Below are positions 9,101 through 59,800 of a DNA stretch of 64,000 nt, piece after piece. The DNA lies in assembly GCF_964355755.1 (NCBI RefSeq), contig NC_092674.1, forward strand, positions 31,422,001 through 31,486,000, read 5' to 3'. Under the pieces are notes generated by a model. It saw only the letters and a list, made by a program, of their open reading frames with translations. It had not been told where the DNA came from and searched no databases. Positions within the stretch are counted from its first letter, which is position 1. Each line of letters opens with the position of its first letter. Source of the DNA: Antedon mediterranea (lineage: Eukaryota > Echinodermata > Crinoidea > Comatulida > Antedonidae). Made by a program: the position numbers and the translations under genes.

Positions 9101-12100
9101 ATATGCGACCTTACCTTCTCCAAACTTGTATATCAGTTTCAATAGCAAACAAAAGGTCAGACATCATTCTTTGATGCATCATGGACCATTTAAACTCTGG
9201 TATTCTATAAGGTGCTCTATGTGGCCCTGGACTAAAGTACTGGCCTGGTTGGGCTGAGTTAACTTGACCTTGTTGTGTGACCTCACCAACGTGATTTACT
9301 TGCTCAGATGTCTCTTGCTATCAAGATTTAAGAAAAAAATATATATAGGTAAAAATATATATAGGTAAGCCTTAAGGAAAATATATATAGGTAAGCCTTA
9401 AGGAAAATATATATAGGTAAGCCTTAAGGAAAATATATATAGGTAAGCCTTAAGGAAAATATATATAGGTAAGCCTTAAGGAAAATATATACAAGTTTTT
9501 GTAAGGATAACAGTAGTAATAATCTAAATATAAATCCATTCATTAAATCATTAGTGTAAATACCATTTCCGTTTTGTTATGATTTGTATAAATAGTACAA
9601 TATAGCAAAGTACAATTGAAATTAACTGTATTACTTTTACTGTAGTTTGTTCTGTATTTTCAGTTTCTGCTTCATCCTTTCCTTCAGCTGCTTTACCATC
9701 TTCTCCATCCTGAATTGCATCTCCCCCAGAATTCACCTCATTTCCTGTAACATCAGCTCCAGCATCACTACCAGCATACTCTTCTGAGACGTTGATGTCA
9801 GTGCCATCTCCACCTGTCATGGCTGATAGGAGACTGTAGGGTTCAGGTGGACGAAGGTTAGAAGTGTCATCCATGACAGCAGAAACTGACATAGCACCAC
9901 CTGGGCTGTTTTCTCCTTGCCTCTGGTATCGTTCAAACGCCTTTATCAACTCAATTTTATGGTTCTCATACGATACCTGAAACACAAGTAAATTGATTAG
10001 AACATGCATATTATTATTACAGTCAACTCTCCCAATACTGGACACCTTTGGGCTGACCTAAAATGTCTGGTTTTTCGGAAAGTCTGGTATTCAAAATGTG
10101 TTTCTAATGGTAACAATGAATTTGGGACCTTTTGGACCGCAAGAAAAGTCTGATATTGGGAGACTTTCTGGTTTTCAGAGATTCCGGTATTGTCGATTGT
10201 AGCAGGAGTGCATTTTTGAGAATTTCTAAAAATTAAATTCGAAAAAACCCACCTTTGAATGAATAATTGAAAGAGTATCGACCCAGACACGCCAACCGCC
10301 CCATTCATACTTGAGGGCGTGGTGTAGCAGCATACGTAGGAGTGAGTAGACCATCTCACTTATTTTCTTCTCTTCATCCGTCTTTGGGTAGATGTATGAG
10401 AGACTTATCATCCAATCTTGCCAAACAGAGCATTGCAAGAGTGTTCTGCCGAAAAAGAAAATTAAATAATTTTAGTCAGACATCCAGAATTTATAATAAC
10501 ATGAATGGACTTAAGTTTTGTGTCCTAGAATTAAGTTTATCACATTCATTCTTATTTAACCATTTAAGCTGGTTCCTACCCATCAAAATTAGTGCCCATA
10601 AATCAATTTACCTGGGTAAATAAGACTGAATGGGCTGGTAGATAAGGTTAAGGTTGAGATAAAAGCACTTTAATTAAAAGAATATATATATAATACCTTC
10701 TGTTTTCTCTACTATGGTTAAATAGCAAGATCATGTCAGACAGGAACAGTCTCTTGACATGTTGTACAGATGCACTTGGAGTTGATTGACGCAGCAATCT
10801 AGCAATGATTTGGAACATACCTGAAAATATATAAAATATTCATGTAAATACTAGCCAACAAGTGAGTGAAAAACTTTAAAATGTGGAAACAAGTTATCTG
10901 GTTTCAGTAAAGTAATGGGTATTAACTGTGTTTTTTTATTCAATTATTTCTAATATTTTATTTTGTGAGAGGATTGATTGAGAAAGTTGTTTAACTTCTA
11001 AACCAGATTCTAACTAAAAAGGAAAAAAAAATATGTTATGTTAAAATGTACTACTATACTTTTTTTCTTGGTTGAATAAATATTACGACACGAAAAATAT
11101 ATTGGTTAACATTGTGAACTATTATCCCTTAGTACACTGAAGTTTGTATAGAATGCCTACTGTATATGTCTAGTCCTCACCTGGGTTCATTATCCTGTAA
11201 GTTTTATCTGGTTCTGTATGCCTGGATGTTTGTACTTGTATGGACACTCTCTCAGTCAAAAGCTAAAACAAAAACATTTTCCAGAAATGAATTATGAGAC
11301 AATCAGTTAATCTTTGCTAAGTTTAAATCAGTAGCCATTTTAACATTTAACCCTGTTACCCACACTTAGGGTTTAAGTACCCACTTTATTATATACTGTT
11401 ACTCACCTCAAACAGACCATTATACATTGTAAGTGTTAAATCTGAAGTACTCAGCATTAACCTTTCACCAATGAGAGAGTACAGGTTATGGCCATGAAGA
11501 AGATCCAATTTATGTCTGATGAGAACAAAAGCAATGACAATTAAGTATCTACTTTTCTGCAGAAATGTATTAAATAAAATTTCTACAATGGTAAAACATT
11601 TATTTAATTTTTTTATTTCAACTTTATTTATAGAGCGTAAACCTTCCAGATGGACAAATTATTGACAGTTGATATTCAGGGGCCCTCTATCTATAAGGTA
11701 TGCAGGGGCCCTCTATCTATAAGGTATTCAGGGGCCCTCTATCTATAAGGTATTCAGGGGCCCTCTATCTATAAGGTATTCAGGGGCCCTCTATCTATAA
11801 GGTATGCAGGGGCCCTCTATCTATAAGGTATTCAGGGGCCCTCTATCTATAAGGTATTCAGGGGCCCTCTATCTATAAGGTATTCAGGGGCCCTCTATCT
11901 ATAAGGTATGCAGGGGCCCTCTATCTATAAGGTATTCAGGGGCCCTCTATCTATAAGGTATTCAGGGGCCCTCTATCTATAAGGTATTCAGGGGCCCTCT
12001 ATCTATAAGGTATTCAGGGGCCCTCTATCTATAAGGTATTCAGGGGCCCTCTATCTATAAGGTATGCAGATTGATGTATGTAGAAAAAGACCATTTGTGA

Positions 12101-15100: not shown

Positions 15101-18100
15101 GATCAGCACACTGGGAGACAATCTTTTTATATAGTGTATCAAGTTCTTTATTATGTTTATATTATACACACATGACCAAAATATCTATGTGCCTTCTGAA
15201 TCTAAAGGTTGTAATTACACAAACCAATAGTGGTGTTGGTAGTTTACCTGGATAATTGTGCTCCCTCCCCTCATACAAGAGGTCTTGTGAAATGATGATG
15301 GTGGTTTGTGGGGAGGCTCCCACCTGAGGGCATAGTTCCTAGACTATACCATTTGTGGAAAGGGGTGTTCAATTAACATTTCTACTTTTCGAGGTATATT
15401 TTGCTCTTCAAGGAGAAAGGTTGTAATTGTAGACACCAATCAACACGATAGCTCATTTTTCTTTTTATTAAATGCTCTGTAGATGAAACTTAAGGAATAA
15501 GAAACTGCTTACTTTATAATTGGGATTCATTAGATAAATAGCTTCTATCTGTTGTGGAGTTAGAGCTTCACTAAACAGATAAACACAAGCTAACTGGCCA
15601 CAGAATGTCCTCTCTTTGTCTGCAGATGGTGCTGCTCCTAGAAAGCATTTGTCAAATGGCTGTGGGAGAACAAGAATAAAATAACAAATTAATATTCTAT
15701 GAATCTCTTTGTTAACTACATATTTTTTTTATTCCTGTCCCATACTTGTAAATGAATCCAATTGGTAAGGATGTACTGACTAACTAGAAAGTTAGGATGT
15801 ACTAACTTATAGGAAGTTAGGTTAAGTAAAAGGCCTGAGTCGTTTTCACTTTGTTCGCCGAACTAGTGAAATATAGAGAAATACAATTATATAAATATTT
15901 TACAGTAACAAATAGCTTTCATGATTTTGGAGGTTACCATTGTCAGAAAGGCCAGATACAGATATTCAATACAGTATTGTTATTGTCTACCTAAAAAAAC
16001 TTATATAAGATTTGACTTTTAAGTTTAACTTAAAAGATAATCACCTCATTGACATTGACATGCCATGGCATCTCACCAGATGATACCAATTTTCCGTTGA
16101 CAAAACATTTGATTTCATTATTCTTCCACCGATGGTAAATGTGTACAACAGAAACCATATACCACTTAAATGAAAAAAAGTCTTGTTAATTAATAAGTTA
16201 TTATTAAGTAATTGTATTTACTTTAGGCTGTGAAGGTATTATATTTTATTATATATATTATATTTAAAAAAAATTACTTTACAAGCCCAAAGTACCCACC
16301 AATAGGTGAGGTTTTAAAGTAGTTTAAAGCCTTCCCAGTACAATTCCAGTCAATTTGAAATCATGTTTATGGATGTTTTTAATAGCAAAAACAAATTGTA
16401 TATAGTGGACAAATGTACAAACTCTCTCTTACATTATAGATGGACCAAAGGATAGTATCAGAAAATCAGTTATTATTATTGCTTTGGACATATTATGAGT
16501 TTGAACATATACCTTTCTTGGTTGAAAGTCAAACTTAATGCAATGCTGGAATCCCTTTCCTTTCACTTTGACCGAAGTAATGACCAAACATGACCCCATG
16601 AAATGACCTGAATAGCCAACACCTTTACCTGTACGGAAACTGAAACAAAAAAATTGGTAAAACCGAAACTTAATTTCATCCAATTTAAAAAAATATATTT
16701 AAGCCTTAATTTCTATATCTAAACTCTCTTCAATTTTCAAGTATTTTACATACATTTTTATAGACTGTTTATTAGTTGTATTCATAACATTTACAACTAC
16801 ATTTATCGGTTAAGAGTCAAATAATTACTCATTTGAGACTTTGTAAATGGAAAATTAAGCTGTTGAAGATTTATTTATTAGTAGTTGTGAGTTTTATGAT
16901 GGCGTATAAAAATTCACATATTGCTTAAATTTAATTTAAGATGGTATATTATACCAGAAGAGGTATTACTTAGACTTAATTTAACATGGCATATTATACC
17001 AGAAGAGGTGTTACTTAGACTTAATTTAACATGGCATATCATACCAGAAGAGGTATTACTTAGACTTAATTTTACATGGCATATTATACCAGAAGAGGTA
17101 TTGCTTAGACTTAATTTTACATGGCATATTATACCAGAAGAGGTATTACTTAGAATTAATTTAAAATGGCATATTATACCAGAAGAGGTATTGCTTAGAC
17201 TTAATTTAACATGGCATATCATACCAGATGAGGTGTTGCTTAGTTTTAATTTAAGATGGCATATTATACCAGAAGAGGTATTACTTAGACTTAATTTAAA
17301 ATGGCATATTATACCAGAAGAGGTATTGCTTAGACTTAATTTAACATGGCATATCATACCAGAAGAGGTGTTGCTTAGTTTTAATTTAAGATGGCATATT
17401 ATACCAGAAGAGGTATTGCTTAGACTTAATTTAACATGGCATATCATACCAGAAGAGGTGTTGCTTAGTTTTAATTTAAGATGGCATATTATACCAGAAG
17501 AGGTATTGCTTAGACTTAATTTTACATGGCATATCATACCAGAAGAGGTATTGCTTAGTTTTAATTTAAGATGGCATATTATACCAGAAGAGGTATTGCT
17601 TAGACTTAATTTAAGATGGCATATTATACCAGAAGAGGTATTGCTTAGACTTAATTTAACATGGCATATTATACCAGAAGAGGTATTGCTTAGTTTTAAT
17701 TTAACATGGCATATTATACCAGAAGAGGTATTGCTTAGACTTAATTTAAGATGGCATATTATACCAGAAGAGGTATTGCTTAGACTTAATTTAACATGGC
17801 ATATTATACCAGAAGAGGCTTTGCTTAGACTTAGACCTAATTTAAGATGGTATATTATACCAGAAGAGGTATTGCTTAGACTTAATTTTACATGGCATAT
17901 TATACCAGAAGAGGTGTTGCTTAGACCTAATTTAAGATGGCATATCATACCAGAAGAGGTATTGCTTAGTTTTAATTTAAGATGGCATATCATACCAGAA
18001 GAGGTATGGTTTGTCACGGTCCACGTTAATGTTGGTCACAGGATCCAATCGGAACCACGTAGTGAAAGTAAATCCATTCTGGTGCGGCCATTTTGACATG

Positions 18101-21100
18101 GGTGGTAAAGCAATTGCCTGAAAATAAATTTAACAAATATAATTATTATTGCTGAAATAATTAAAAAAACAAAATTTGTCCTTAAATTAACTTTCTTTAT
18201 TTACCAAGAAATTAAAATGAATAAACAAACTAAGTATTCTAAAAAAAATGTAATTTCTTCGTCCTTTTCATATAAAATCAATAATCTTAATTTCAAAATC
18301 AATTTACATGATCATTGATTTTGAATTTTTCGCTCATTATAATATTTGAATTTAGTTTATTGTTGACTTTCAATTACTACAGTTGGTATACAAATACACT
18401 AGCTGTTTATTATTACAGGAAAATGCTATCTGAATGAAGGCAGTAACACTGGAATATTTTGATATTAAACTTTTTGATCATCCTTAAATGCACTATGTTT
18501 AATATAGTAGTTGAACAGCTCAAATTCAGTTTTTAATTTCTATTTGACAGTATGCTAGACACAAAGGTTTTTTTTTTATCAGAATTCGAAAAACACAAAT
18601 TTGATTAAGAAATAAAAATGTTGAATGATGGAGATGAGCATCCTACCTGGGATGACATAAATAGAGACGTAACAATAATAATGCCATCAACTTAAGCTAA
18701 AGATCACAAATACAGATATACATGCATAAATCTAATCGTAAGCATCAGACTTAGATAGCTGAAGAAATCTTAGGGAATCCCCCAAGCTTTTCGGAATATT
18801 CATCAATTTGAACCTTAGTATTTGAACAACATAATATTATTAACAACATTATGTGCACATTAATTCAGTTTAGAATAACGAATGAACAATTTCCTCAAAC
18901 CAAGTAGTGGACTATTGATGCACTCTACATCAAGTACATCATAATGACATGCTAATCCATATAATTGCAAATGGCCACTAATGATAAACGTATCAGTACA
19001 AATTTGTCTAATAATCCTCATTATACTGTAGAATTATACTCTAATCTTGTAGTAGTAGATTCATTCTACAGATAAGTCTTATCTTATTGTTAGTACATTG
19101 CAATTATTTTTGTTAACATAATGTTTTACTAAATAGTAAATTTCTCTAGGAATATTTAAAAGAATTGATGCGTTTTTATATACATGTACAGGCATTTCTA
19201 AAATTAAAATAAATTTTATAGATATTTTGAGCAATAAAGTGCTTAGGGGTTATTGTACATTGCTATTGATTGGACGTTACAGCCTATTCCTTATTTCACG
19301 TAATGAGGGCTAGACATTGAACCATGCGAGGTCAATTTCTAGAAGCAAAGTTGACATTTTGAATTATTCCAGCAACTTATTTGCTTTTGTTTGTTATCAG
19401 AATAATAACACTACATTACAGTATAAATATTATATCACTGAGAATACAATACATTTTTAAACGGAGTAAAATGCAATTTACCTTCAGCATGCAGAGTTAT
19501 TAATCATCATAGTGCACTTATAATTATAATGTTTAATTAAACATTAATGATTAATTGGTAGAATATATAACAATAGATAATAACCAATACTACTTAATTG
19601 TATAGTGATGCAAGGTAGGTATATGCTACAGGTATAATATAACTGATAATATTATTTATTACTGTACAGGTATAAAATTAATTTGCTCAGTAGGTGGTTT
19701 GTGATAGATTAGTATTTAGATACTCATTATATTAAACTGAAATACCATTATCATAAATTAATTTTTATAAAATGATATTATAACCTAATCTATTGTATTT
19801 AATGACATTATATTACTTTCATGTATAGAATCCGGCACTACATCACAGCATATTATTAAGGAAGACATTAAGTCAGATCAATAAAATCACTTTCTCACAA
19901 CGCGTTGAATGTACTGTTGCTAATATTTGAAAAGCTTGTATCTTACTGCATAAACTACAGTACTAAAATAGTAAAAAGTAATTTTGAAATGAAAAGCAGA
20001 AACAGAATTTCTTTCGTTTTCAATTTATGATTAAATTCACTTACTGATCCAACAGTACCAGGGAAATTGAAGAAAACGTCAGGTCCATGTCTGCAAGGCA
20101 TTTGACGCAGAACTTGCAATAACTTGATTGAATATTTGGGCTAAAAAAACATAAAATAGAAAATAGTGCACATTAAGCAATATTTTAGTCTTTTTACAAA
20201 TCAACACAGCTTTTTTATAATAAGACATTAGTGAAAATAAAAAATTATTTTCAACTGAATGCCAATTAAATGGAAAACCTTTTATCAAATATACAAATTT
20301 TAATTCATCAGATTAGAGGAAAATATGCTGCTGATAAATTGACATTACAAAATTCTTCAAAAGTATATTTTAAGAGTAAAACATGGAACCAGGGAGTTGT
20401 CCCTGATGGAACCAAATTAATGCCTTGTCTATACTATCAAATTTCATGTACCAAAAAAAATGTGATGTGGCTATATATGGACATGATGATGTCATATGAT
20501 ATCACTACCATATTTGGCATATCACACTTTTTTTGCCAAACTAGTTTGATAGTGTAGACAGAGCTTTAGACTTTGTAAAATCATAGATCAAGAAAGTAAA
20601 AAGTGCTTGTTCATTCATACAATGTTTTATTACAGTAATTTTGACACTGAATAAATATGTGAATAGACTGTTTGCCTAAAGACATCATTGAGATTATCTT
20701 AAGAGTGAAGTTTTAATTCCTAACAGACACATATCCAATCAAAATGTACATAGAAACATATAAACAGTGGCAAGATATGTGTGCTCATTATAACAAATTA
20801 CTCATTAGAGATACAGAGTAGGCATATACGTGACATCATGTTTGTAACAAGACACCTTGCACAATCTAAATATCAAATGCATCGTGGGATTGTTATGGAT
20901 CATCTCGCTAACATGCTCATCACATTATGGATTAATCCTGCAACATTATGTAAATGAAATCATCCTAAATGTTTACGCCTGTGATTGGTCTATTCCTTAT
21001 CCTACCAATCTTAAGTGCTACTGCTAAGAATCTATCTTAAAATGCTCATATTTTGATCATTTTGCTCATCAATTTATCCAAGTTTTAATCCAACCAATGG

Positions 21101-24100
21101 CATAATCATTGAGTTTGTATCCACAAGCACAGAGAAATTTAAGTATTACTTAGATTATTAGTTGTAGCATATCGTATGTAGTACCAATGTTCATGATTAA
21201 GTAGCCCCATTAGCCTTCACCTTTGACATTATGACTCACATTTAAAAGGAACATAGATAGACAAAATTGCGAATGTTATGTCAAATAAATTCATGTTTAA
21301 TAAGGTAATGTGAAAAATGAAAAATATTATTAATGTTTTATAGTTTCTCTCAGATTGAAATTGTTAGTTCCGAAAATTAATTTGAATTATTTGAATTAAA
21401 ATCACACGGATGTTTGCTTTGAACCTCTGCACCATGGCAATTTGGTTCTTTCTCACACGGATGTTTGCTTTGAACCGTCTGCACCATGGCAATTTGGTTC
21501 TTTCTCACACGGATGTTTGCTTTGAACCGTCTGCACCATGGCAATTTGGTTCTTTCTCACACGGATGTTTGCTTTGAACCATCTGTACCATGGCAATTTG
21601 GTTCTTTCTCACACGGATGTTTGCTTTGAACCGTCTGCACCATGGCAATTTGGTTCTTTCTCACACGGATGTTTGCTTTGAACCGTCTGCACCATGGCAA
21701 TTTGGTTCTTTCTCACACGGATGTTTGCTTTGAACCGTCTGCACCATGGCAATTTGGTTCTTTTTCACATGGATGTTTGCTTTGAACCGTCTGCACCATG
21801 GTAATTTGGTTCTTTCTCACACGGATGTTTGCTTTGAACCGTCTGCACCATGGCAATTTGGTTCTTTCTCACACGGATGTTTGCTTTGAACCGTCTGCAC
21901 CATGGCAATTTGGTTCTTTCTCACATGGATGTTTGCTTTGAGCCGTCTGCACCATGGCAATTTGGTTCTTTCTCACACGGATGTTTGCTTTTGAACCGTC
22001 TGCACCATGGCAATTTGGTTCTTTCTCACACGGATGTTTGCTTTGAACCGTCTGCACCATGGCAATTTGGTTCTTTCTCACACGGATGTTTGCTTTGAAC
22101 CGTCTGCACCATGGCAATTTGGTTCTTTCTCACACGGATGTTTGCTTTGAACCGTCTGCATCATGGCAATTTGGTTCTTTCTAACACGGATGTTTGCTTT
22201 GAACCTTCTGCACCATGGCAATTTGGTTCTTTCTCACACGGATGTTTGCTTTGAACCGTCTGCACCATGGCAATTTGGTTCTTTCTCACACGGATGTTTG
22301 CTTTTGAACCGTCTGCACCATGGCAATTTGGTTCTTTCTCACACGGATGTTTGCTTTGAACCGTCTGCACCATGGCAATTTGGTTCTTTCTCACACATAT
22401 GCCTGCTTTATGTTCCTTTGGTATCATATGGTAATTTGATGTTAGCCGAGATTAAAGGCTCTTAAGTTAACCAATAGTTACATCAAAAAACACTCTGGGG
22501 TTGTTAACCTTCTTTTGAAGCAATACTTGTTTGTCTTGTTTTCTGAGACTTTTGTCGCTATGGTAATTTGGTGTCCTCTCAGCAGACTCTTAATACCCAT
22601 GTGCTCATTTCATAGTGAACAACAAAACTCTCATTGTTATTTTAAAATTTAATAATAAAATGCTACATTACCCATTTTCCATCGCATCCCTTGAGGCTCT
22701 TAAACAGAATCTTCAATTCTTTCACTGATATGCTATAGTTTGCAAGCACACCTATGATCTCTACAAGCAACTCTGTAAACAAGACAATAAAATGTAAATT
22801 TGTTAATCATCTTGCTATTATTAAAGTGCACTTCATTATGAGAAGGCTTTTAGGGCAGCGTACTGGTGGTAATTGACAATCGGGAAATAATTTACATTTT
22901 ATATAATTGTGCACTAAGCTTTGAAATCTGTGTCAATTATGAGTTAGCAACCAAGCTTGCCCAAGGATGCCTAATTTTGGATTGATAGTCTTATTTATAC
23001 TCTTTTTCAATTGAGCTTATGTTTGATTTTAATGCCATTACAGTAGTTCATTATAAGCTTGTAGTGGGGACTCCTTGATATAATATACGATATGTGTTGA
23101 AAGCTCCATAATAATATGAGAATAACGGCATTTTTCAGATTGATAATCAATATCATTACTGATAAACCAACACACACAATATCCCATCATACCAGCACAA
23201 TCCATAATACAGGATAATGTTATGTGGCTTGTGTATCTTGCTTGTGTATCTCATTGTGTTTTTGATTGATGTATAGTGTACTGATACTATACCCTCTCTC
23301 ATCAAATAAGTCAATGATGTAGATAGATAGAGTGTTTTAGTGTTGCACACCAAGGATAACCAAAGTCCTTAGACTTGTTTCAGATGGAATACTCTGGTGG
23401 TGAATTGAGAGAGTGTACTGCGTTAAGAGTGTACATGTACAAGGGCTGGCTTAACGTCTCATCCGAAGGAGCTCTTTTACAGTTTTACCAAAAAATTATA
23501 CCTGCAATGATTTCCTCCGATTGTGGTAAGCGGTCTAGCAGTTTCTCAATCAAACCAACACTTGTACAGGCTTGTAAATTTAACACACTTCGCCGAACAA
23601 TGCCGCAAAACATACTCCATATTTCAGCCTATAGGAATAAGAAATCATTTGTGAAACATGCGAGATGAAGAGGAATAAACATGGTTTCAGAACTGAAACA
23701 GTTAATACATAAATTTCACGTTATAACTGTATACAGGTAGCATGGCCACCTGTATTTAAATCTAATGTAAAAGCAACTTAACTGGACTACAGTAACTATC
23801 TGTAGTGACCTATGCACTTTAAATTTTGAACCTTTAATTTTATGTAAAGTATTGCACACTGTATGTTTGACTGTGATCAACAGTATGCACCTTTTTAGTT
23901 AGTACGTACTGAACCTATGTAAACCTACGTACCTGTTGTGTGACCTGACAATGACTCATAAGTTCCAGGAGATGGTTGACATTTTCCGGGTCGTCTATGA
24001 TGAAAGCACATTCTAAATCAAATTCACGACCAACAAGCTAAGGGCAAAAAAAAAATAAATAAAAAAATCAATATCACTACTTCAAAGTATAGTAAACTCA

Positions 24101-37809: not shown

Positions 37810-40800
37810 TTAATCACCAGGAAAGAGTGAAATTACAATTTGATGTACCTGCGTTCTATTTCTATGTTGTCTTCGTTGTTCTTCTTCACTTTCTGCAATC
37901 GCTCTAGCCAATGCCTGATCCTCCTCTTCTTGCCGCCTAGCTTCTTCTGTTCTGACTGTTGCTGGCATTGACGTAGGCCTAGCCTGATTTGAAACCATAG
38001 ACAACTGGATAGCTCTTGCCATCGCTTCATCTTCTGACTGTAGGGTATAATAAAAAATAAACATTATTTTTTATCTGCCCTCCCTTTAGTTACATCATCC
38101 ATAATATTTACATATTTGCTAAGACAATATATATTAGAAACGTCTAAATATACTATAATAGAAAAATTAGGCTATCAAACTAGTTTGACAAAAAAGGTGT
38201 GATGTGCCTAAATATGCTAGTGATATTTCATTGTGTATCACATAAATTTTGATCATGTAGACAGTGCTTAAGCTAAACATCCTTACCATTCCCCCTTGTA
38301 TGGACTGGGGTGAGGTTTGAGTACGAGGTGGATGACTCTGTCGTGCTCGCTGTTGTCGCTCTCTGTCAAAAAAAAAATACAAAACATGAACAAAAGGTCT
38401 CTAAAATCTCGCAAAACAAACAATAATATTTCAATAACTGTAAAGTAAAATGGTATATGCACCAATGGTATATGCACCAATGGTATATGCACCAATGGTA
38501 TATGCACCAATGGTATATGCACCAATGGTATATGTACCAATGGTATATGCACCAATGGTATATGCACCTATCAAGATTTTGACCAATAGAACTTAAGGTT
38601 GTCTTTTGTGGTCTTGATCTTGGCTCACTAGACTTGACTGGTCCAGACTTCTGTGCTCTATTCATTGCTGCTGCTCTGTGTGCCAAAAATATAATAATGA
38701 TGATATGAAACATTTATAAAGCGCTCTTCACCGAAGTCTCAGCGCAACATGAAAAGAATAACTATTACTACTACTATAAGGGGAGTTTTTGGGAGATTTT
38801 AATTGAAAAGGGGATGGAACGAGGAAGTTAGAACCTTAGGCATGGAGTTAAGGTTGATTTTAGGTGGTGTTAACATAAGAGGATTCATTTCAGAACAAAG
38901 ACCTCTAAGTAGTGGGACAAATGGTTTAATAAGTTTAAGATAACGCGGTGCCATAAAGACGCTTATAAAAAAGGTTGCAATCTTGTACTTGATATGCTCT
39001 TTAACATGCAACCATTGAAGTTGTGAAAGCATTGACATCATTGCCACGCCTTGATTATCATTATCATATCATCATAACTCTTGTATCATTCTCATCTTAT
39101 ACTACATATACAGTATTTCTTAAATATCATCATATATTTACCCTTGATTTGACATGGAATAGCCACTTCCTCGAAAACCTTTACATTCATGATCAGTTTG
39201 ATGGCGATGTCGTAAACAATAATTCAATCGGCATGATTCGCATATAACTGGTACAAGCTTTAAAACACAAAATATCAAAATATACATAACTTGCTAGTCT
39301 GGGCTCCAGACAGAGTTTTTTCTTAATATTAGTAAAAATATAAATATTTTTGCACATATGGCGTTTCATACGTGTATTACTTGAGTTTGGATACTCCGTC
39401 TGGGGAAACACGCAAAAGTCACGTGGTTTGACACCAAGAATTCTTGGTGCATAGATTATTCGGTTGACTAGTTTCAGCTGCATGCGATTGGCTACTCACT
39501 CGTACACCGTTTTAATATTCATGTGTCAGAATTTCAAAGACTCAACAACTAAGAAGGTACGCATGCGCTATGTTACGTTTAGACAATGTGTACTTGGGTA
39601 CATTAATGAAAGTTTCTGAAGGCTAGAAATGATTTTAAATGCCTAGTAGTAGTCTGGTAAACATTTGATTGGATTTTTCCCAAGAAAACTTGTCTTGCTT
39701 CTCCGCAAATCAAACATTGAATGGATCATTTAATATTACGCGGAGATAATTTGATTTAATTCCCACCCAGACCCTGTCCTGTTCTGTGTAGTGGTGTAGC
39801 CCTGTCTGTTGTGTGTGAATCCTGTTGTGTGCCGGTGGTGGTATGTAGGCCTACCTTATTGGCGTTTTATTTGGCAGGTCATACGTGCGAGTTGAGTAGG
39901 ACCTACGAAGGAGGCCTAGGCTAAGGACTAAACAATTAATAAACAAAACAACTTGGCAACATGATTTCATATTTCAACAGTCTCGATCGTACATTCAGCA
40001 CTGTACGTACTCGATCTTTTTCATTTTGAAACAAAATGATCATTGGTTGATTCGAAATCCATATTTACATACCGCCCGCCCCATATAGCCAAATACGGTA
40101 TGATAACCTACGTCATTCTTATCGGATGTTTGCGGTCTGCAAATCGATTTCTATACGTGTTTCACAAGTCCGTATTTTCAGACAAAAATCGAAATAAAAA
40201 CAAATAAATAAAAATAAAAAACAATACAGACTTGGGGAAAGTCTAATAAGTTACATGTATTTTGTTTGAAAGCTTGTTTTTGTGGGCAAATTATTGTGGC
40301 TCAGTTTGTTATATTACGATTATTTAGGGGTATGTTGATTATTTAGAGGTTAATTTTGGATGAATTTGGCTTCTAAAATCATGTGATCTATTTTGTTTGG
40401 GTCGTAAATTATTTTACCCAAGTAATTGAAAGGAGTTATATTTTAATCTGTAGAAACTCAAATCAATTTTTTAAAATTAAAATTGTAATACTTACCTCTT
40501 TTTTCTTACAACCCTTTACATTGCACCTATTAGCATAAACTTTACGTTTTTTAATTGCAGGATCTGATTGGCAATCTCTATCGATGTGACCAGACACGGC
40601 AATGTCGGGAGCTTCTCCTCGTTGACCAGGAACTGGTTTATTGCACAAAGGACAAACTGGAACTTGGACATCCTGTGAATCAAACAATAATACTATATAA
40701 TAATAATACTACATAATAATAATAACACTATAATTACATAATAATTAACATTTCATTAAATATGGAACCCATTGTATTTTGAAATATCTAAGGACATTCT

Positions 40801-43708: not shown

Positions 43709-46700
43709 ATGGCGGAAACTGTGGAAGCGACGAAAGTTCCAGAAAATGAACAAACAAGCACTGCTCCAAAGGAAGAAAAAAAGGCGAACAACCCTAGAGT
43801 GTTTTTTGATATAACTATTGGTGGCAAATCTGGTAAGTTTAATACACGGAAAGACAAATTAAGAGCCTCGTAATCTAGGCCGACGGAACAACAACGCCCA
43901 ACAAGCAACAACGTGGAATCCCCTCCACCATCGACCTGCTGTATGTGCGCCGCACTGCAAACCGTTTAGATGACTGGCCTAGGCCTAGCACATTCTTTAT
44001 TTGCACACTATTAAATCGGGTGTCACGAAAGCTCAGACCACGAAAGCTCAGACCCCCTAAGACCTAAGATCACGAAAGCTAAGACCCAACACCTAAGATT
44101 ACAAATATTTATCTTTCGCACCTGCCTTGTATTTTAACTCCCAACATTTATTCTGAATACCACACCTTAGAATTGGCACTTTCATGAAAAAGAATCACAT
44201 AAAAAGTAACAAATACATTTTTAAATTGATGATTTTACAGACGTTTTTCTCGCACACAAAATGACTAGCCTACAGTACTACAGTAGGCCTACCCCATGTT
44301 CAATGTTTTTGTTTCTATGGAACGTCAAAAGAGCAAAAATTATATAGAGGGCTGAAAACTCTGTGGAGTCCATCTACAGTGTGGAGTGGATGGAACAATG
44401 TAAAATTAAAATTGTAATGATAATAGTATAATCATGCAAGTACGAAGAAATAAATACTGGCAAATAAATTTTAATTTAAAAATCATGATAAGTTTTTTTG
44501 TTTCGTTTTCTTTCTGTTTTTATGCTTGTACTATTATTGTTGCTCTTTTGGCGCTCCATGGAAACAAAAACATTGAGCATGGTGGGAGCTCGAGGAGTTA
44601 CATTACAGTATACAAAGAAACACATATGTAAAATCATCAATTTAAAGGATTTATTTATTTGTTATTATGTGTTTCTCCTTCTGAAAGTACTTATAAGTCC
44701 TAATTTTAAAGTTTGGTGTTCAGGATAAAGTTAGTCAACAAATTTGGAGTCAAAATACAAGAAAGGCAGGTGCGTAAGAAAAACATCCTCTGAACCAACA
44801 CAATGGAGTAAATATATACCAACAAACAACCCGTCAAGTTTGTTTGTTGTAAAGAAAAAATATACATTTACTCAACAGGCGAAAATAATGTGAGTTTATC
44901 TATGTTTTGCGGTAGTATTAAATTATATTTATGGTAATAAATGAAACCTACTGTGTTTAAAATTATGTATGGATAAACAAGTATTGTTTTTAATCTGTAG
45001 TATATCTTAGTATTTGTAATCTTAGGTGTTGGGTCTTAGCTTTCGTGATCTTAGGTCTTAGGGGGTCTGAGCTTTCGTGGTCTGAGCTTTCGTGACACCC
45101 CTATTAAATCACGTGAATTTATAATTATTAAAGGCAATACAATAAACTCTTCATAATAAATGTTGGCGCTAATGCAGTTTCGTACCCACCCCTTAAAACT
45201 ACTCAAAATGAGCCATGAATGTTTTTGATTTAGTAAATGTTATTTTAGAAATCAATTTCATTTGTCAACCTTGTTTTATTTTTCTATTAATTTACAGCTG
45301 GAAAAATATATTTTGAACTCTTTGCTGATGTAGTTCCAAAAACAGCAGAAAATTTCAGGGCACTTTGCACTGGCGAGAAAGGAATTGGAAAATGTGGAAA
45401 ACCACTGCACTACAAAGGAAGTATATTCCACAGAAGTGAGTCTAAGTTAATGATAGTTTTCCTGCATATGAAAAGCATGCATTGTATATTATACAGATAT
45501 TGACTGCTTAGAGGTTAAATATAAGATTTGACATCCCCGAGGGAATGATATTAAGTTCGAGGGAATATATATTTCCCGAAGCGGCAGCTGAGGGAAATAT
45601 ATATTCCCCGAGAACTTAATATCATTCCCTTGGGGATGTCAAATCTTATATTTAACCGATATAAAAGGCGATATCTGTTATATTATATAGCCAAGAACAA
45701 GTCTGCTGGGTTGGGTGAAGCTAGGCTAGGCCTCCTATAGTATTTGTATTGTATGTAAACAAGCCTGCCTAGACACCTTACCTTGCGAATAATAATATAC
45801 AGATAATTACTAATTAATGATTCCTTGGCAATAAAATATTCACTTAGGCCTAGGTCGTTTAAATTAACAGAAGAATTTCCATCAATTTTAAGCCTATTAA
45901 TAATAATAATATTATAATCAGGTAGGCCGAATAAACAATTTGTCTTCTTCGAGGAGCCGAATCGCCGGATGTTCAGCGCGTACTAGTTACTAGGTTACTA
46001 CCGTGAGTTTTGACCATTCACAAATGGTGTTTCATCACATTTAGGGAGGACTAATAACAAATGAGGGCGCTATGTATGCATAGCTTAAATAGTTTAAAAG
46101 ATTAATTTTTTCAAGCAAGTTCCGTTGCGCAGCGGTTGAAGCGTTGTCTTGTGATGGAGTGACAATTCCATCCCGAGTTCAAGATCCAGTAGATGACTTT
46201 TGTTTATTTATCGGCAAACGCGAGTGTTGCACACGAAAATTACACAGTCAATATCATCGAACTCGAGAATTTATATGATTAATGACAGGGGACACGATAA
46301 TTACACGAAAATTACTCATAGTCAATATCATCGTTCTCGAGGATATATACGATTTACGATCCTCGCAGCGGTAGTCATGTGACGCAGTTTCAACCAATCA
46401 CGTTCACGTATTTACATAGGCTATGTAATATTATTTAATATTACATTGATGTATGCTTTTTTTTCTAATAATTTATTGAAATGATAATGATACACATTGA
46501 TTTATTGAAATGATAATGATACACATTGATTTATTGAAATGATAATGATACACATTGATTTATTGAAATGATAATGATACACATTGATTTATTGAAATGA
46601 TAATGATACACATTGATTTATTGAAATGATAATGATACACATTGATTTATTGAAATGATAATGATACACATTGATTTATTCAAATGATAATGATACACAT

Positions 46701-49424
46701 TGATTTATTCAAATGATAATGATACACATTGATTTATTCAAATGATAATGATACACATTGATTTATTCAAATGATAATGATAAACATTGATTTATTCAAA
46801 TGATAATGATACACATTGATTTATTCAAATGATAATGATACACATTGATTTATTCAAATGATAATGATACACATTGATTTATTCAAATGATAATGATACA
46901 CATTGATTTATTCAAATGATAATGATACACATTGATTTATTCAAATGATAATGATACACATTGATTTATTCAAATGATAATGATACACATTGATTTATTC
47001 AAATGATAATGATACACATTGATTTTCTTGCAGTTATAAAAGATTTTATGTGCCAGGGAGGTGATTTTACTAATCAAAATGGCACTGGAGGTGAGAGTAT
47101 CTACGGAGAGAAATTTAATGACGAAAACTTTATAATGAAGGTACAAATATAATTATTCATACAATATAGATTGGAAGACAGATGTAAATTCAATCATCCA
47201 TTGTTTATATGATTTTTTGCCTCATATTGTATTTTATAAAAGACAAAAATAAAATAAAATTCAATTCAATATATTAGTTATTATTATTATTTATACAAAT
47301 TCAAAAACATATGATGCAAGGAGAAAAAATATAAAAATAATCAAAACATATTGGTATTCCTTTTCTTACTAGCATGATACGCCCGGACTTCTTAGCATGG
47401 CTAACGCAGGACCAGGCACAAACGGCTCACAATTCTTCATCACCACTGCAGTGACTTCACATCTTGATGGCAAACATGTTGTTTTTGGCAGGGTCATCAG
47501 AGGAATGGGTGTTGTTAGAAAACTTGAAAATATTGAGAAACAAGAAGAACACCCAAAACTGGTAAATATTGTCTGCTAAAAGTGCCATAAGTTAATGTTT
47601 ATCTTTAGATCAATGTTGCCATTCATTCAATTTCTCATTATTTGAGATGATTAAATTGAAAAGTAGCCAAAGGTTGTTTGCATTCAATTATAATGTTAAT
47701 GAATGAATGCGTTTTTTTTACAAATAATTTTACACAGTTTTTTAGCATGTAAAATTACAGAATATTTACATACAGGTATATACAAGGCAACAAATGATGA
47801 TGATTAATTTTTACATATATTTTTAGGAGTGTAAAATTGAAGATTGTGGTGAGATTGCAGAGGATGTAGACATAACATCAGTTGAAGACGATGGTACTGG
47901 GGACGTTTACCCTGACTGGCCTGATGATGCTGGCATTGACTCTGAAAATGTAAAATACAATTCTAATATTTTGAAAACAATTAGTATTTCAACTTTCGTA
48001 TTTTAAAGAAATTATATTATTTTTTTTAGGCTGAAAAGATTCTTGTTGTTGTGAATAATATTAAGGCAATTGGTAACGACCAGTTTAAGGCAAAGAACTA
48101 CAAAATGGCTGAATCAAAATACAGGAAAGCACTGAAGTATGTTATAAAAACATTTTCTAATGAAACACTGGGTTACTCCAATTAATTTAAATCGGTTAAA
48201 ATGAGTAGAAGTGCAGTACATAGAGCTTATCAGATCTGGGATAGTGTGGCCTTAAGATATAAATCTCTGACAACATTATCAAACTGTGATGTGCCATATA
48301 TGGATGTAATGATGTCATATCACTACCATTATTTGGGCACATCGCATTATTTTGTCAAACTAGTTTGATAGTGTAGACAGAGCTTAAGACTGATTGCAGG
48401 ATTGGTTCGTATTCAATTCAATTTAATTTTGACTGGTATAATCATTATTTTATTTATTATTAATTTTATTATTATTATTATAGCTATCTGGACCTGACTG
48501 ATGATGATGAGGATTCATCCAATTCAGAAGTAGAACTAAATGAGAACTTGACTAAAGAAGACCGAGAGAAACTTCATCTGGCATATTTACCACTCCATCT
48601 TAACATTGCAGCGTGTCACTTAGCACTTAAGGAATATCGGGAGGCAAAGGAGGAATGCGAGAAAGTTAGATATTTAATAATACTATATAATTCTTTAATC
48701 TGATAGTAATTCAGATTTTTTTAAAATATATATTCTTTTAAAACTCACTTTAACAAATAATATTGACATTTTTTTATGTAAATTTAAAGCAATGGTTAAC
48801 CAAATACTAATTCATTTTAACTTTACTGACTTGTGTGTTTGTGGTGCTGTTTCTTTGGTAGCTATTTCCATTCTAATATGAGTTTTGAAGAAAAGAAAGA
48901 AATTAAAATAAAACTTATTACTATTATGCTGAAATGAACACCACATTGGAAGCTAATTAAATCCACATACAGAAGTTAATTATACATTTGTAAATAATTT
49001 CAGGCATTGACTATTGATGCAGACAATGCAAAAGGCTTGTTTAGGAGAGGTAGAGCAAATCAAGGCTTAAAAGAATATGATGTTGCTATGAAAGACTTCA
49101 ATGCTGCCCTCAAACTACAACCATCAGATAAAGGTAAGGAGCTTATTCACAATGGATACATTGTTGTTTTAACCATTAAAAGGACATTCGCAATATTAGA
49201 ATTTCTGCACTGTACAATGTTTTGATATTTAATTATTGTCTAAGTCTAAATCATCTATGATCTGTCCTTTTATTTACAATTAAACTCTAAAATAAGATAT
49301 ATTGGTTGGATAAGAATTTTTCTTTTTTTTAGGTATAAAAAGTGAAATTCAAAGGACGAAAGCACTACAGAAAGCTGAACTTGACAAAGAAAAGCAAACA
49401 TACGCAAAGATGTTTCAATCATGA
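43709..49424 (+). CDS. PPID: Peptidyl-prolyl cis-trans isomerase D (cyclophilin 40), Hsp90 co-chaperone
   Basis: Nine exons: 43709-43832, 45298-45435, 47034-47140, 47373-47561, 47827-47949, 48030-48136, 48484-48664, 49004-49133 and 49333-49424; 396 residues (human 370, the extra being mostly an N-terminal Glu/Lys-rich leader). Residues about 32-200 form the cyclophilin fold with catalytic motifs [20 protein letters not shown] and [20 protein letters not shown]. The CyP40-type His is present in [11 protein letters not shown], where CypA has Trp, a change known to weaken cyclosporin binding. The C-terminal part has three TPR repeats ([60 protein letters not shown]), the module that binds the Hsp90 MEEVD tail, then a basic helix ending AKMFQS. 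Exon 7 uses donor GTTAGA. Introns 1 and 2 carry a transposon and a minisatellite. It lies head-to-head with ZFAND2. Confidence 0.96.
44018..45100. mobile_element. 1083-bp inverted-repeat DNA transposon with perfect 10-bp target-site duplication
   Basis: Terminal inverted repeats of about 90 bp (44018-44107 and 45011-45100) begin GGGTGTCACGAAAGCTCAGA and are essentially identical. Flanks 44008-44017 and 45101-45110 are both CTATTAAATC. The TIR itself contains three CACGAAAGCTMAGACC subrepeats. Much of the interior (44110-44340 against 44540-44790) is also inverted, so the element can fold back almost end to end. No transposase is present. A 10-bp duplication with long TIRs suggests a Mutator-like (MULE) non-autonomous element. 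It lies in PPID intron 1. Confidence 0.92.
45513..45657. mobile_element. Hairpin element (about 65-bp arms) in PPID intron 2
   Basis: Starts GGTTAAATATAAGATTTGAC and ends with its inverse GTCAAATCTTATATTTAACC. Arms also share CGAGGGAATGATATTAAGTT. The loop is about 14 bp (GAAGCGGCAGCTGA). No coding capacity. Confidence 0.88.
46120..46195 (+). repeat. Possible tRNA-like SINE head
   Basis: GTTGCGCAGCGGTTGAAGCG resembles a polymerase III A box and GAGTTCAAGATCC a degenerate B box 45 bp later, followed by a T-rich stretch. Weak call. Confidence 0.35.
46470..47025. repeat. 29-bp minisatellite (about 19 copies) running up to the 3' splice site of PPID exon 3
   Basis: Units read TGATTTATTSAAATGATAAT then GATACACAT. 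The first seven copies have TTGAAATG, the later ones TTCAAATG, a block pattern showing stepwise expansion. The last copy breaks off in TTGATTTTCTTGCAG, which is the acceptor at 47031-47033. Only about 10 bases of unique polypyrimidine tract remain. Confidence 0.93.
48256..48388. mobile_element. MITE copy F
   Basis: Left end diverged (AAATCTCTGACAACATTATC), core GTGATGTGCCATATATGGAT, right end intact (TTTGATAGTGTAGACAGAGC). It lies in PPID intron 6. Confidence 0.85.
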
Positions 49425-52127: not shown

Positions 52128-52391
52128 GTAAGCCTTTTAAAACCAAATCATTTCTTACTAAATTGAAGTCTAATTCATACTGTAATTCAAAATACAATGC
52201 CATTATTAACTGTAAAATTATTATATTTTGTATTGTTTAGTATTAAAAATTATGACAATGATGACATTCCTTCATCATCCCGATGTAACTTGATTTCAAT
52301 TTCAATCCATATTGAACAAAACGCCTTTTTTTGTCAGCTCCACTGCTATTTTAATCATATATTTCATCTTTTTACCAGGCAAAAACACAAG

Positions 52392-53231
52392 ATGAATACC
52401 AAGATTTTAATTTTACTAGTAGTCGCTGTCACCACATGTTTGGTTGATTGCAGACCAACCAGGCCTATTAATGGTGGTAATAGCGGTGGCCATGAAGGAT
52501 CAGGTGGAGATAGTGGAGAAAGAAGTGGAAATATCGGTGGCACAAGGGTTGCTTCAGGTGGTGCAAGCAGAGCCGGTAATTCCGACAAGGCCACACAAAC
52601 TAGTGATGAAGAAGGTTCAGGCGGAGACAGCGGAGAACGATCAGGTGGCGCGAGTAGAGTCGGGACAGTTGGTGGCGCAAGCAGAGTCGGATCAGGTGGC
52701 GCAAGTAGAGTCGGATCAGGTGGCGCAAAAAATAATAATGAAGAAGAAGGGTCAGGTGGAGACAGCGGAGAAAGAGCAGGTAGCGTAAGCAGGGTCGGAT
52801 CAGGTGGCGCAAGTAGAGTCGGTGGATCAGGAGGCGCAAGCAGAGTTGGTGGAGCAGGCGGCGCAAGCAGAGTCGGTGGAGCAGGCGGTGCAAGCAGAGT
52901 TGGTGGATCAGGAGGCGCAAGCAGAGTCGGTGGAGCAGGCGGCGCAAGCAGAGTCGGTGGATCAGGAGGCGCAAGCAGAGTCGGTGGAGCAGGCGGCGCA
53001 AGCAGAGTCGGTGGAGCAGGCGGCGCAAGCAGAGTCGGTGGAGCAGGCGGCGCAAGCAGAGTCGGTGGAGCAGGCGGCGCAAGCAGAGTCGGTGGAGCAG
53101 GTGGCGCAAGCAGAGTCGGTGGAGCAGGTGGCGCAAGCAGAGTCGGTGGAGCAGGCGGCGCAAGCAGAGTCGGTGATCTTATAGGACAAAGAGAGAGAAG
53201 AGGTGGAATACTCTTCGGAGGCGATTTCTAA
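52392..53231 (+). CDS. Secreted Gly/Ser-rich repeat protein (279 residues, unknown function)
   Basis: Starts with a clear signal peptide MNTKILILLVVAVTTCLVDC; the mature part begins near RPTRP. I chose this ATG because it lies 13 bp after a consensus 3' splice site and starts a signal peptide; an upstream in-frame ATG at 52197 would lie in the intron. The mature chain has three acidic Ser-Gly modules (EGSGGDSGER, HEGSGGDSGE-type) and then about 14 copies of a 9-residue unit, VGGAGGASR, in 27-bp tandem repeats. The C-terminus is GQRERRGGILFGGDF, with a possible furin-type RERR site. No Cys follows the signal peptide. It could be a structural, adhesive or proteoglycan-like secretion; Ser-Gly next to acidic residues is the known context for glycosaminoglycan attachment. 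I recognise no named family. Confidence 0.85.
   Translation: MNTKILILLVVAVTTCLVDCRPTRPINGGNSGGHEGSGGDSGERSGNIGGTRVASGGASRAGNSDKATQTSDEEGSGGDSGERSGGASRVGTVGGASRVGSGGASRVGSGGAKNNNEEEGSGGDSGERAGSVSRVGSGGASRVGGSGGASRVGGAGGASRVGGAGGASRVGGSGGASRVGGAGGASRVGGSGGASRVGGAGGASRVGGAGGASRVGGAGGASRVGGAGGASRVGGAGGASRVGGAGGASRVGGAGGASRVGDLIGQRERRGGILFGGDF
52830..53178 (+). repeat. 27-bp coding repeat in the Gly/Ser-rich gene
   Basis: About 13-14 copies of GGAGCAGGCGGCGCAAGCAG then AGTCGGT. Several neighbouring copies are identical, and GGATCAGGAGGC variants alternate with GGAGCAGGCGGC in the first half. Recent expansion in frame. Confidence 0.95.
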
Positions 53232-53845: not shown

Positions 53846-53947
53846 GTAAGTTATGTTTCATTGTATTACTACTATAATTGTTTATTAACATAAAACAGTA
53901 TAAAAGATAGTTCAGAATGCATTCTCTAGTATTTGTTTTTCTTTAGC

Positions 53948-54709
53948 ATGAAGTTTTTCGAGTTAAATGTTGTATTGGTGGTGGTCTACATCGTTTGTTC
54001 AACGATCGTACTTGGCCGTCCCCATGTGAAAGATAGATCTAACGAGAACCCAGCAATAGGATCAGAAGATAGACCAGCCTTAAACCCAAATGCTGAAAGA
54101 CCTACTCTACCAGAGGATACAGAAAGACCCATCGGAAATCCAAATAGACCACAGCGACCACCAGGAGTAGGACCATCAGGTGAAGATAGACCAGCCTTAA
54201 ACCCAAATGCTGAAAGACCTACTCTACCAGAGGGTGGAGAAAAACCAGCACTTCCCCCTGGTGTAGAAAGACCAACCTTAAACCCAAATGCTGAAAGACC
54301 TACTCTACCAGAGGGTGGAAAAAGACCCATCGGAAATCCAAATAGACCACAACGACTACCAGGAGTAGGACCACCAGTTGAAGATAGACCAGCCTTAAAC
54401 CCAAATGCTGAAAGACCTACTCTACCAGAGGATACAGAAAGACCCATCGGAAATCCAAATAGACCACATCGACCACCAGGAGTAGGACCACCAGGTGAAG
54501 ATAGACCAGCCTTAAACCCAAAAGCTGAAAGACCTACTCTACCAGAGGGTAGAGAAAGACCCATCGGAAATCCAAATAGACCACAGCGACCACCAGGAGT
54601 AGGACCATCAGGTGAAGATAGACCAGCTTTAAATCCAAAAGCTGAAAGACCTACTCTACCAGAGGGTGGAGAAAGACCAGAAGTAGCTCGACCTGTCGGT
54701 GGACAATAA
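53948..54709 (+). CDS. Secreted Pro-rich repeat protein (253 residues, unknown function)
   Basis: Signal peptide MKFFELNVVLVVVYIVCSTI, probable cleavage after VLG, mature start RPHVK. I place the start at 53948, not 53933, because TTTCTTTAG ends at 53946 and the earlier ATG is intronic. The mature part is a chain of Pro-rich modules: DRPALNPNAERPTLPE (six forms) alternating with ERPIGNPNRPQRPPGVGP (four forms), so the composition is dominated by Pro, Arg, Glu, Asn and Gly. No Cys and no folded domain. RP and PxRP motifs recur every few residues, and the signal peptide is followed by RP as in its neighbour. A structural or adhesive secretion or a Pro/Arg-rich peptide precursor are both possible. 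AATAAA at 54782 is a likely poly(A) signal. Confidence 0.85.
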   Translation: MKFFELNVVLVVVYIVCSTIVLGRPHVKDRSNENPAIGSEDRPALNPNAERPTLPEDTERPIGNPNRPQRPPGVGPSGEDRPALNPNAERPTLPEGGEKPALPPGVERPTLNPNAERPTLPEGGKRPIGNPNRPQRLPGVGPPVEDRPALNPNAERPTLPEDTERPIGNPNRPHRPPGVGPPGEDRPALNPKAERPTLPEGRERPIGNPNRPQRPPGVGPSGEDRPALNPKAERPTLPEGGERPEVARPVGGQ

Positions 54710-56852: not shown

Positions 56853-59800
56853 CTAAGTCGTTTTGGTAAGCTCATCGATATCAACTGCAGTTTTAGTGAG
56901 ATAGTAAATCCAATAGATGAATAAGAATACAATGAATGTTATTGGAAAAAAGAATCTACTGTAATTGTCAATATTGCGAAAGTTGAACGATTCCTCTTTG
57001 GCAGTTTCGCCAGCCTCGACGCTCTTTGGTTGTTTCGTATTTGGACCGCTACCGTCGCCGATGAATCCACTGTTGTGAATTCCAGACTGTCTTCTGTTCA
57101 CATTGTTGGTGTCCTAAAAATACATAATGAAATATTTTAATGTATTATTATATCGATGGTTAAAACCATACCTCACTTGAATTCTTCGCTTATCAACTGA
57201 CCAAGGAGGACGGACAGACACCTTCTGATAAATAAACCTATCAGAGACGGAATCAAAGTTTGAAATAAAGAAAAAAAAAACAGTTTTGTTCGTCAAAGTT
57301 CGGCAATTTGGTTGACGAGCGAGATTAGATTATTATATTGTTTCGCGTTCGGTAAATACAAATGCGCATTCATTACTTATAAGCTGAAGGCATGTTGTAT
57401 GGTTTTAAAAAATAAAATGTTAGCATTATATTATAATATTTATAATAATTATAATATTATACATGGAAACTGATTAGTGCTAATTATCTCGGAGAAAACA
57501 CTTATGTGTAGATCTTGTCTCAAGTACTAATTAAAGACAGTACAACATATTATTAAGGACGATTTGAATACATACTGTTCCCTCATCATTCGGACTATAG
57601 TTGCTGATTCGGGAAGAAGACCTTACTTGTTTTGGTGGAGGTGGTTTACTCTCGTCTGGTTTCTTTGGAGGTGGTGTGGAACCGTAACTGACCATTGCGA
57701 ATTCTAACAAAGCCGCAAACACACACAAGTAACAAAACACGAGGTAGTAGTCGATAGCCTTAATGTAGGATAGCTTTGGCAAAGAGTTATTGACTCCACT
57801 CATGAGGGTTGTCATAGTAAGAACGGTGGTGATGCCAAGTGCGATTCTTGCAGGTACGGCAGCCGGGTTTATCCAAAATGAGACCCACGACAGAATAACA
57901 ATCATGGTTGCTGGAACGTAAACTTGGATAGCGTAGTACGACATCGAACGACCAAGGTAAAAGTTACCAATCAGCTGCGAATAGTTTCCAACTAGTTAAA
58001 GGAAATCAAATAATAAATTATTAAATAATAAAAAAGGAAATAATAAATAAAAGATCGTTATTGTTATAATAATCATTACAGTCTACAGCGATTGCCATTC
58101 CTATTGGAGGACGTATCTACATTCCATATTCCGTGTGAACGCAGATAAACACGTTTGCCTATTCGTTCGGGCATCCTGGTGAGACATTATATAATGCTCC
58201 TACTTACCATAGTACACAGCCTCTGCTTCAACGCCGTTGTTTCCAAGTAAGTTAAATTGTGACAACGCTATAGATGGGTCCAAATAAATAGCAGAGCTAT
58301 CGTTTCCTACCCACGAATATTTAACATGTTGATTACTATATGCGTCTAATAAAAAAAAAAACAAACACGTGAATGAAGAAAAATAAAATGGATTCGAAAT
58401 AACGAATGGAAAATGTTGGGCTTATACTTTGGAACCTATATTAAATCAATCTAACATTCATGATGGGAATCAAAAGAGTTGATTTAACCAGAATGCCGTA
58501 CGTTAGCCTCTGTAAGCCTACTTATAGTATGAATTTCTCAATATTCGCTCAAATTTTGTTTGCCCGCAACGTAAAGTAGTACGTTGGAGTGGCATTTACA
58601 TAGCAGTATACACTAAAAACTTGCGCAAGCGAATTCACCAGTGATAAACGGCTGACCATTCAGCTTGTGATTGGTCAAATTACTACGTCGCACACTTACC
58701 TCATTGCGTTGCGTCATAGTGAGAACCAAGCATGTGTATTTTTATGTGGGTTAGTTGCTCAATTAGAAGTAATAACTGCACGGCAACACCTTTTGTAGTC
58801 GATAATTATTATCCATGTAATAATATAATTACCATTATACTGGAAACTATTTATTAAGGTGTTCAATAAAGTAATCATGCGTTTTTGTTTGTTTTGAAAT
58901 GAGAGCCAAGCATCCTTTTATTTATTGATTTGGTTTAAGTATGACTTAATTAAAAATTGTCACAAACGTCACACATATTTCTTTACAGCCAATATTGAAA
59001 CATTATTTAGTACTTATATTTTTCTTGACTTAATTAACCTATCCTATATGACACAGTTTCGTGCCCTCTTAGTAAAACTAAAGTATATCCACTAAGTGCA
59101 TAATATTACTTTTTGTCACATCTGATGAAAACGAAATTAGTAAGCATAATACTTGGTTCCCACTATAGGACACAACGCAAGGATGTCGACGCGACGCAAG
59201 CGAGCAGCAACAGTAATCCATCGCGGATTGCTTGGTCAAACCAACGTGCGTTGCGCGTCAAAGAATGACCAATAGCTTGCAGCTGGATTGCGTATCAACA
59301 CTTACAACTTTCAAGCCACAGGTCACAATGCTGCGTGTCCATTGGGAAGTATTTCAAATCCATTAGGCAACCTGCAGTCAATGTGAGTCTAAATGAGTAT
59401 AATAATCATTATCAATAGTCATCATCAAATGTATTTTGTGATAATATTAGATTAATGATGGTACCGCTGAGGTAGCTGGGAAACGCCGATTGGTCTTGCC
59501 GAAAAAGAATGAATTATATTAAATAATAATTAACATCATCATCTCCATCATCATCTCCATCATCATCAACATAATACAGTCGCGCCGAGCTTTTCTGGTT
59601 GTACTCTATCGTTTTGATTTAGCTTTTTACTTATTTTTTTTGTGTATCTCCATTCATATCCAACCACTGATACCCACACCATTGTCATTTTTCAGTATTT
59701 TTTTCAGACAAATATATTAACAGAAATAATTATCTCTATTTAAAACTAAGACATCTTTTTTGTTTTCAATTATCATTATGTTACAATTTGCTTACCTAGT

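Follow-up and report, generated by a model that had tools for sequence, protein, structure and literature searches.

How does the spliceosome settle on the end of an exon when the junction that marks it has been copied, over and over, into the intron that follows? This question is raised by a locus of the feather star Antedon mediterranea, within a stretch of 64,000 nucleotides (contig NC_092674.1, positions 31,422,001 to 31,486,000; hereafter the window). The initial annotation had described here a 45-bp minisatellite that copies a neurobeachin (NBEA/LRBA) 5′ splice junction about 24 times, starting from the real junction at the end of the sixth coding exon. The gene, the exon, the identity of the first unit and the count of 24 copies are all borne out below. 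We propose, with a probability of roughly 0.84, that the array is a neutral slippage product, a "mirage" minisatellite, whose true donor is mainly used and whose copies are used at most rarely.

The true junction and its copies

A search with 560 residues of the encoded protein gave 100% identity to the A. mediterranea neurobeachin-like protein P0121 and 94% identity to the neurobeachin of Anneissia japonica, in both cases among the best 120 of 1,938 matches listed from a search that scored the best 7,999 candidates. P0121 carries PF02138 and PF06469 as listed. Walking it along the minus strand reproduced 1,913 residues exactly and recovered 32 introns, all of them GT-AG; beyond the window, three more neurobeachin introns were mapped before the walk ended.

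Exon 6 (17996..18117, minus strand), defined by the spliced ORF of exons 1-11 and an exact match to P0121, is 122 nt long and contributes its last 12 bases (17996-18007) to the repeat unit. The authentic 5′ splice site, CTG/GTATGA with the slash at the junction (17990..17998, minus strand), opens a phase 2 intron of 1,356 nt (intron 6; 16640..17995, minus strand, from the gene map) that splits a Cys codon as TG/T. Exon 7 follows at 16513..16639 on the same strand, behind the acceptor TTTTTTTGTTTCAG/, again supported by the spliced ORF and the match to P0121. Splicing exon 6 to exon 7 keeps a single frame. P0121 reads PYLFCFRTGKG here, with PYLFC/FRTGK divided by the junction, and the annotated splice is therefore that of the first unit; the P0121 model, on which this use of donor 1 depends, may rest on prediction or homology. 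Cys-Phe stands at the junction in 10 of 14 aligned relatives, P0001 and P0010 carry a different residue, and P0005 and P0017 have no aligned sequence at this point. The exon peptide gave no match in the PDB at E 0.001.

Tandem Repeats Finder, run on the window, placed the minisatellite at 16919-18007 (period 45, 24.1 copies, 90% matches), and a count of junction copies divides it into 24 minus-strand units, all of 45 bp except one of 51 bp, running from the end of exon 6 into intron 6. The repeat unit combines 12 bases from the end of exon 6 with 33 from the start of intron 6. The true junction is unit 1; the 23 further copies, which we call decoys, lie inside the intron. The junction 18-mer had 24 matches at up to 3 mismatches, compared with a mean of 0.14 and a maximum of 3 in 100 shuffles of the window. 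Two details of the earlier description need amending. Each unit was said to hold the exon 12-mer followed by GTATRATATG; this is true of most units but not all, the 12-mer being exact in 17 of 23 decoys and GTATRATATG being matched in 22 of 24 units. Donors were also expected at 17995 minus 45n, which is correct for n=0-3 only, because unit 4 (17822..17872, minus strand), the sole 51-bp unit, bears a 6-bp tandem duplication of TCTAAG. The junction copies stand at 17995, 17950, 17905, 17860, 17809 and so on to 16954, the later donors lying 6 bp further on than predicted.

Variation is confined to 12 of the 45 columns and mean pairwise identity among the 24 units is 92%, although 19 distinct unit sequences can be told apart. 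The commonest type (units 10, 12, 14 and 17; 4/24) equals the true junction except at +5, which leaves the exon-side unit only one base away from it. Units 13 and 15 are likewise identical, as are units 6 and 9, and units 12-13 and 14-15 form identical 90-bp pairs. The most diverged unit is that at the distal edge (unit 24; 16922..16966, minus strand), with at least 3 differences from every other unit. Judged from these sequences, the identical pairs and the diverged distal unit would fit ordinary minisatellite turnover. The duplication breakpoints have ATA in common (exon ATACC, distal flank ATATG), which would suit slippage at a microhomology.

A search of 263,423 bases, including a stretch (L001) that overlaps the window, found the unit nowhere but at this locus when up to 12 mismatches were allowed. 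No copied junction was detected at the other 63 of the gene's 64 mapped junctions (24-mer, up to 4 mismatches, within 3 kb). Among 18 arrays selected from 50 rows of the Tandem Repeats Finder output, this alone crosses a mapped exon boundary of neurobeachin, the sole gene mapped. An open stretch of 398 codons also runs through the array on the plus strand and might be taken for a repeat protein; we leave this reading aside, because a frame that is open in one unit stays open throughout an array of period 45 bp, and because the sequence is already explained by the gene on the minus strand.

Donor strength and the consequence of decoy use

All 24 units keep the GT. Position +5 is G in seven of them (units 1, 2, 11, 13, 15, 18 and 22) and A in the remaining 17, and six of the 23 decoys thus retain +5G and the donor 9-mer. 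In a matrix built from the other 31 donors of neurobeachin, the +5G form scored 6.83 bits, which places it 17th of 32; the +5A form reached 3.53 bits, less than all but one of the 32 true donors. Human-type donor frequencies rank the two forms in the same way. The suggestion that the true site faces a long row of near-identical donors does not hold as worded: 17 of 23 decoys are weaker by 3.3 bits because their +5 is A, and only decoy 2 is both strong and within the usual exon length. Use of unit 2 would give an exon of 167 nt, and use of unit 11, the next +5G decoy, one of 578 nt; 31 of the 32 mapped exons are no longer than 528 nt. The real contest is therefore between units 1 and 2.

Decoy 2 (17942..17959, minus strand; donor 17950) matches the true donor at every base from -12 to +23, a span of 35 nt. 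Donor strength alone cannot explain a choice between the two, and the initial annotation was right that position or context must decide. Moreover, the identity narrows down what decides, which must be either the distance to the acceptor or sequence beyond the shared span (over 12 nt upstream or over 23 nt downstream). Two identical donors 45 nt apart are a clean natural test of donor choice, and this we regard as the most useful part of the locus.

Two further properties were considered as discriminators between the true site and the decoys. The energy of the duplex with the U1 5′ end was -4.2 kcal/mol for the +5G and +5A forms alike and was ruled out. Accessibility was rejected, as all 24 donors are predicted to be buried alike. 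Matrix scores themselves predict use poorly, since the best donor-like site of intron 6, at 16753 and outside the array, slightly exceeds the true donor in the gene matrix (7.14 vs 6.83 bits); human frequencies give 4.74 for this site and 6.64 for the true donor. Across 28,635 bp, the other introns contain 38 donor-like sites of at least 6.5 bits that the gene model evidently leaves unused.

From any decoy the frame reads TGG TAT GAT ATG CCA TCT TAA, replacing the Cys with WYDMPS and a stop. The same in-frame TAA (17977..17979, minus strand, by the reading frame of the sequence) is reached whichever decoy is taken, inside the first unit. An early stop had been foreseen correctly and its peptide had been given as YDMPS; the extra W arises because the split Cys codon becomes Trp. 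The product would comprise 246 residues of a 2,854-residue protein, with the stop upstream of many exon junctions, and under the general rule for nonsense-mediated decay such decoy-spliced mRNA is expected to be degraded.

Origin of the array and alternative readings

Arrays of this kind are known from amphioxus, where "mirages" are minisatellite-like tandem duplications of exon-intron boundaries. They are described, in the available excerpts of the reports, from Adh3, the globins BflGb6/BflGb9, TnC and PGBD5, and are stated there not to interfere with the splicing of these globin, Adh3, TnC and PGBD5 genes (PMC3087553, PMC3902484). The feather-star array shares two of their defining features: its units span the exon-intron boundary, and its copies carry splice signals (24/24 with GT, 7/24 with +5G), as do many mirage copies. 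Its 45-bp unit falls within the 10-160 bp given for amphioxus (PMC3087553, PMC3902484). As in those excerpts, the annotated splice is at the true site, and the identical inner units may reflect a concerted evolution like that described for amphioxus. The differences are of several kinds. The host is an echinoderm (Crinoidea), of another phylum; there are 24 units, against 3 and 6 in the two BflGb6 haplotypes excerpted; the donor sits in a predicted hairpin and most copies have +5A; and the exon-side unit has diverged no further than the inner units, unlike what the excerpts describe for amphioxus. On its sequence features the array is a mirage minisatellite, a known phenomenon now seen in an echinoderm. 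The literature covered was that of open-licence papers, and we do not claim priority for echinoderms.

Related repeats occur in human duplicated genes, in which internal tandem repeats at exon-intron boundaries were surveyed by De Grassi and Ciccarelli in 2009 (PMC2812944). There too, minisatellite expansion at the boundary affects introns; the excerpted text speaks of novel introns and alternative splicing in recent paralogs, whereas the feather star has a lengthened intron in a gene conserved across animals (PMC2812944). In human genes, according to an excerpted study, exons are depleted of competitive decoys near true donors, while introns are depleted of only the most competitive ones (PMC8964760). 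Human decoy donors and intronic U1 sites resemble those described here in being unused GTs beside a true donor, of which near and strong ones compete most; in these excerpts they are single unrelated sites, whereas the feather-star decoys are copies of the true junction (PMC8964760, PMC5933811).

The account that we favour starts from what can be observed directly, namely that the array has the structure and frame described above, that the annotation uses donor 1, that the +5A copies are weaker and that no conservation can be detected. Slippage would have produced a first tandem duplicate of a 45-bp segment (12 bases of exon 6 and 33 of intron 6), which would then have multiplied inside the intron, in 45-bp steps and 90-bp pairs. 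Intron 6 would thereby have grown to 1,356 nt from about 315 nt, its length with a single unit, compared with a gene median of 332.5 nt. The spliceosome would mainly take the first donor, which has a normal distance from the exon 6 acceptor, real upstream exon sequence and +5G; exon definition would favour the true site. Copies would be used at most rarely, and any use would lead to the stop after WYDMPS and to removal of the mRNA by nonsense-mediated decay. The decoys are then probably neutral and harmless to splicing. We infer this order of events, as we do exon definition, decay and neutrality.

Column variation was examined for signs of selection. Variable columns make up 3/12 of the exon-derived part and 9/33 of the intron-derived part of the unit. 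Within the donor 9-mer, 1 of 9 columns varies, compared with 12 of 45 over the whole unit, a reduction that is not significant (P=0.23), and selection on the decoys as donors is rejected on this basis. The one suggestive point is that the commonest unit matches the true junction at every base except +5: the first unit may have been homogenised with the array while selection on real splicing kept its +5G, or the match may be due to chance.

The exon end and the donor are self-complementary and are predicted to form a hairpin, ATACC-TCTTCT-GGTAT (17992..18007, minus strand; folding prediction), of -4.8 kcal/mol. Eighteen of the 24 units preserve the stem exactly. The true unit is predicted to have one further pair, C-13 with G+5 (z -2.29; 5 of 200 shuffles were as stable or more so), and among the gene's 32 donors the true donor is predicted to be the least accessible. 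It is predicted to be buried in a modelled one-unit intron too, where 0.5% (GU pair) and 1.5% (9-mer) of 400 flank shuffles were as low; the burial would therefore predate the array. We treat it as a lead rather than a result, given that it was noticed post hoc, that one of 32 donors must be lowest and that folding ignores proteins.

This lead underlies the alternative that survives best, itself improbable, in which downstream copies of a weak, hairpin-buried donor would raise local U1 snRNP binding and aid recognition of exon 6 while staying uncut. The low accessibility of the true donor, the predicted age of its burial and a U1 duplex that is nearly the weakest of the gene (rank 30/32) speak for it. 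Excerpted precedents exist as well: human PAH exon 11 is defined with the help of U1 bound downstream of its natural donor (PMC5933811), and exon skipping can be corrected by engineered U1s that bind downstream (PMC4822034, PMC4289686). However, the donor and hairpin columns are without detectable conservation and the stem is broken in 6 of 24 units; moreover, the decoys are predicted to be as buried as the true donor, most of them lack +5G, and by the gene matrix the true donor is mid-range (17/32). Still less likely, in our estimate, is an array used by selection, in which the weak buried donor would be aided by its own copies as U1 landing sites that +5A has disarmed for cutting.

We give even less credence to a tuning of neurobeachin output by copy number, whereby added units would increase decoy use, and with it premature stops and decay. 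Six decoys do keep the donor 9-mer, all decoy use ends at the same stop, and minisatellites often vary in length. Length variation is also described for amphioxus mirages in the excerpt of one report (PMC3087553). Yet decoy 2 is the only strong and near copy, added copies would lie ever further from the acceptor, and the column variation given above (1/9 vs 12/45, P=0.23) yields no evidence for tuning via decay; the amphioxus mirages, moreover, are reported in the same excerpts as not disturbing splicing (PMC3087553, PMC3902484). Least likely of all is a shorter array expanded or misplaced in assembly, for although one amphioxus mirage was, in the excerpted report, aberrantly assembled in a genome draft (PMC3087553), the 19 distinct sequences in 24 units, the 51-bp variant, the diverged edge unit, flanks that join exon 6 and exon 7 correctly and a 31.9-Mb contig argue against it.

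With the array read as a mirage minisatellite, boundary-spanning minisatellites, known from amphioxus and in a related form from human in the excerpts cited, are extended to an echinoderm, which suggests that any region dense in minisatellites may give rise to them again. The array also bears on intron lengthening and on the possible origin of new intron positions.

Minisatellites and neighbouring features in the window

Minisatellites account for 10.3% of the bases of the window (20 arrays), compared with 3.2% in 16 spaced 10-kb samples of the same contig (L006-L021), a richness that accords with the slippage origin proposed above. The window lies 0.41-0.48 Mb from one end of the contig, and 60% of the repeat bases in the samples come from the one 1.0 Mb from the other end (L006), which has 8 arrays. 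On this small sample, minisatellites may be enriched toward chromosome ends. No telomere array was found at the contig end (L005), where two TTAGGG and two CCCTAA occur.

Several other arrays touch neurobeachin. At 2359-2656, an in-frame minisatellite with 24- and 42-nt units is a coding repeat in exon 29. A 26-bp array with 100% matches (9352-9491) ends 34 bp upstream of the exon 23 acceptor and adjoins the likely branch-point region of intron 22. A 52-mer is repeated 19 times in intron 4 (21402-22396) and a 26-mer 15 times in intron 17 (11673-12069); together with a 29-mer repeated 19 times at 46471-47025, these are probably young, with 97-99% matches. In a neighbouring stretch of the same contig (L003, window -18109 to -15528), a 60-bp array has 44 copies.

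Two neighbouring plus-strand open stretches (52167-53228 and 53930-54706) consist largely of the minisatellite-coded repeats GGASRVGGA and PALNPNAERPTLPEG. Each has, by eye, a hydrophobic leader-like start, and neither had a Pfam match at E 0.01. Elsewhere in the window, Pfam matches mark a ZFAND2-like zinc finger (40466-40708, minus strand), a TPR protein (48998-49222, plus strand) and the membrane region of a Cys-loop receptor (57534-57995, minus strand).
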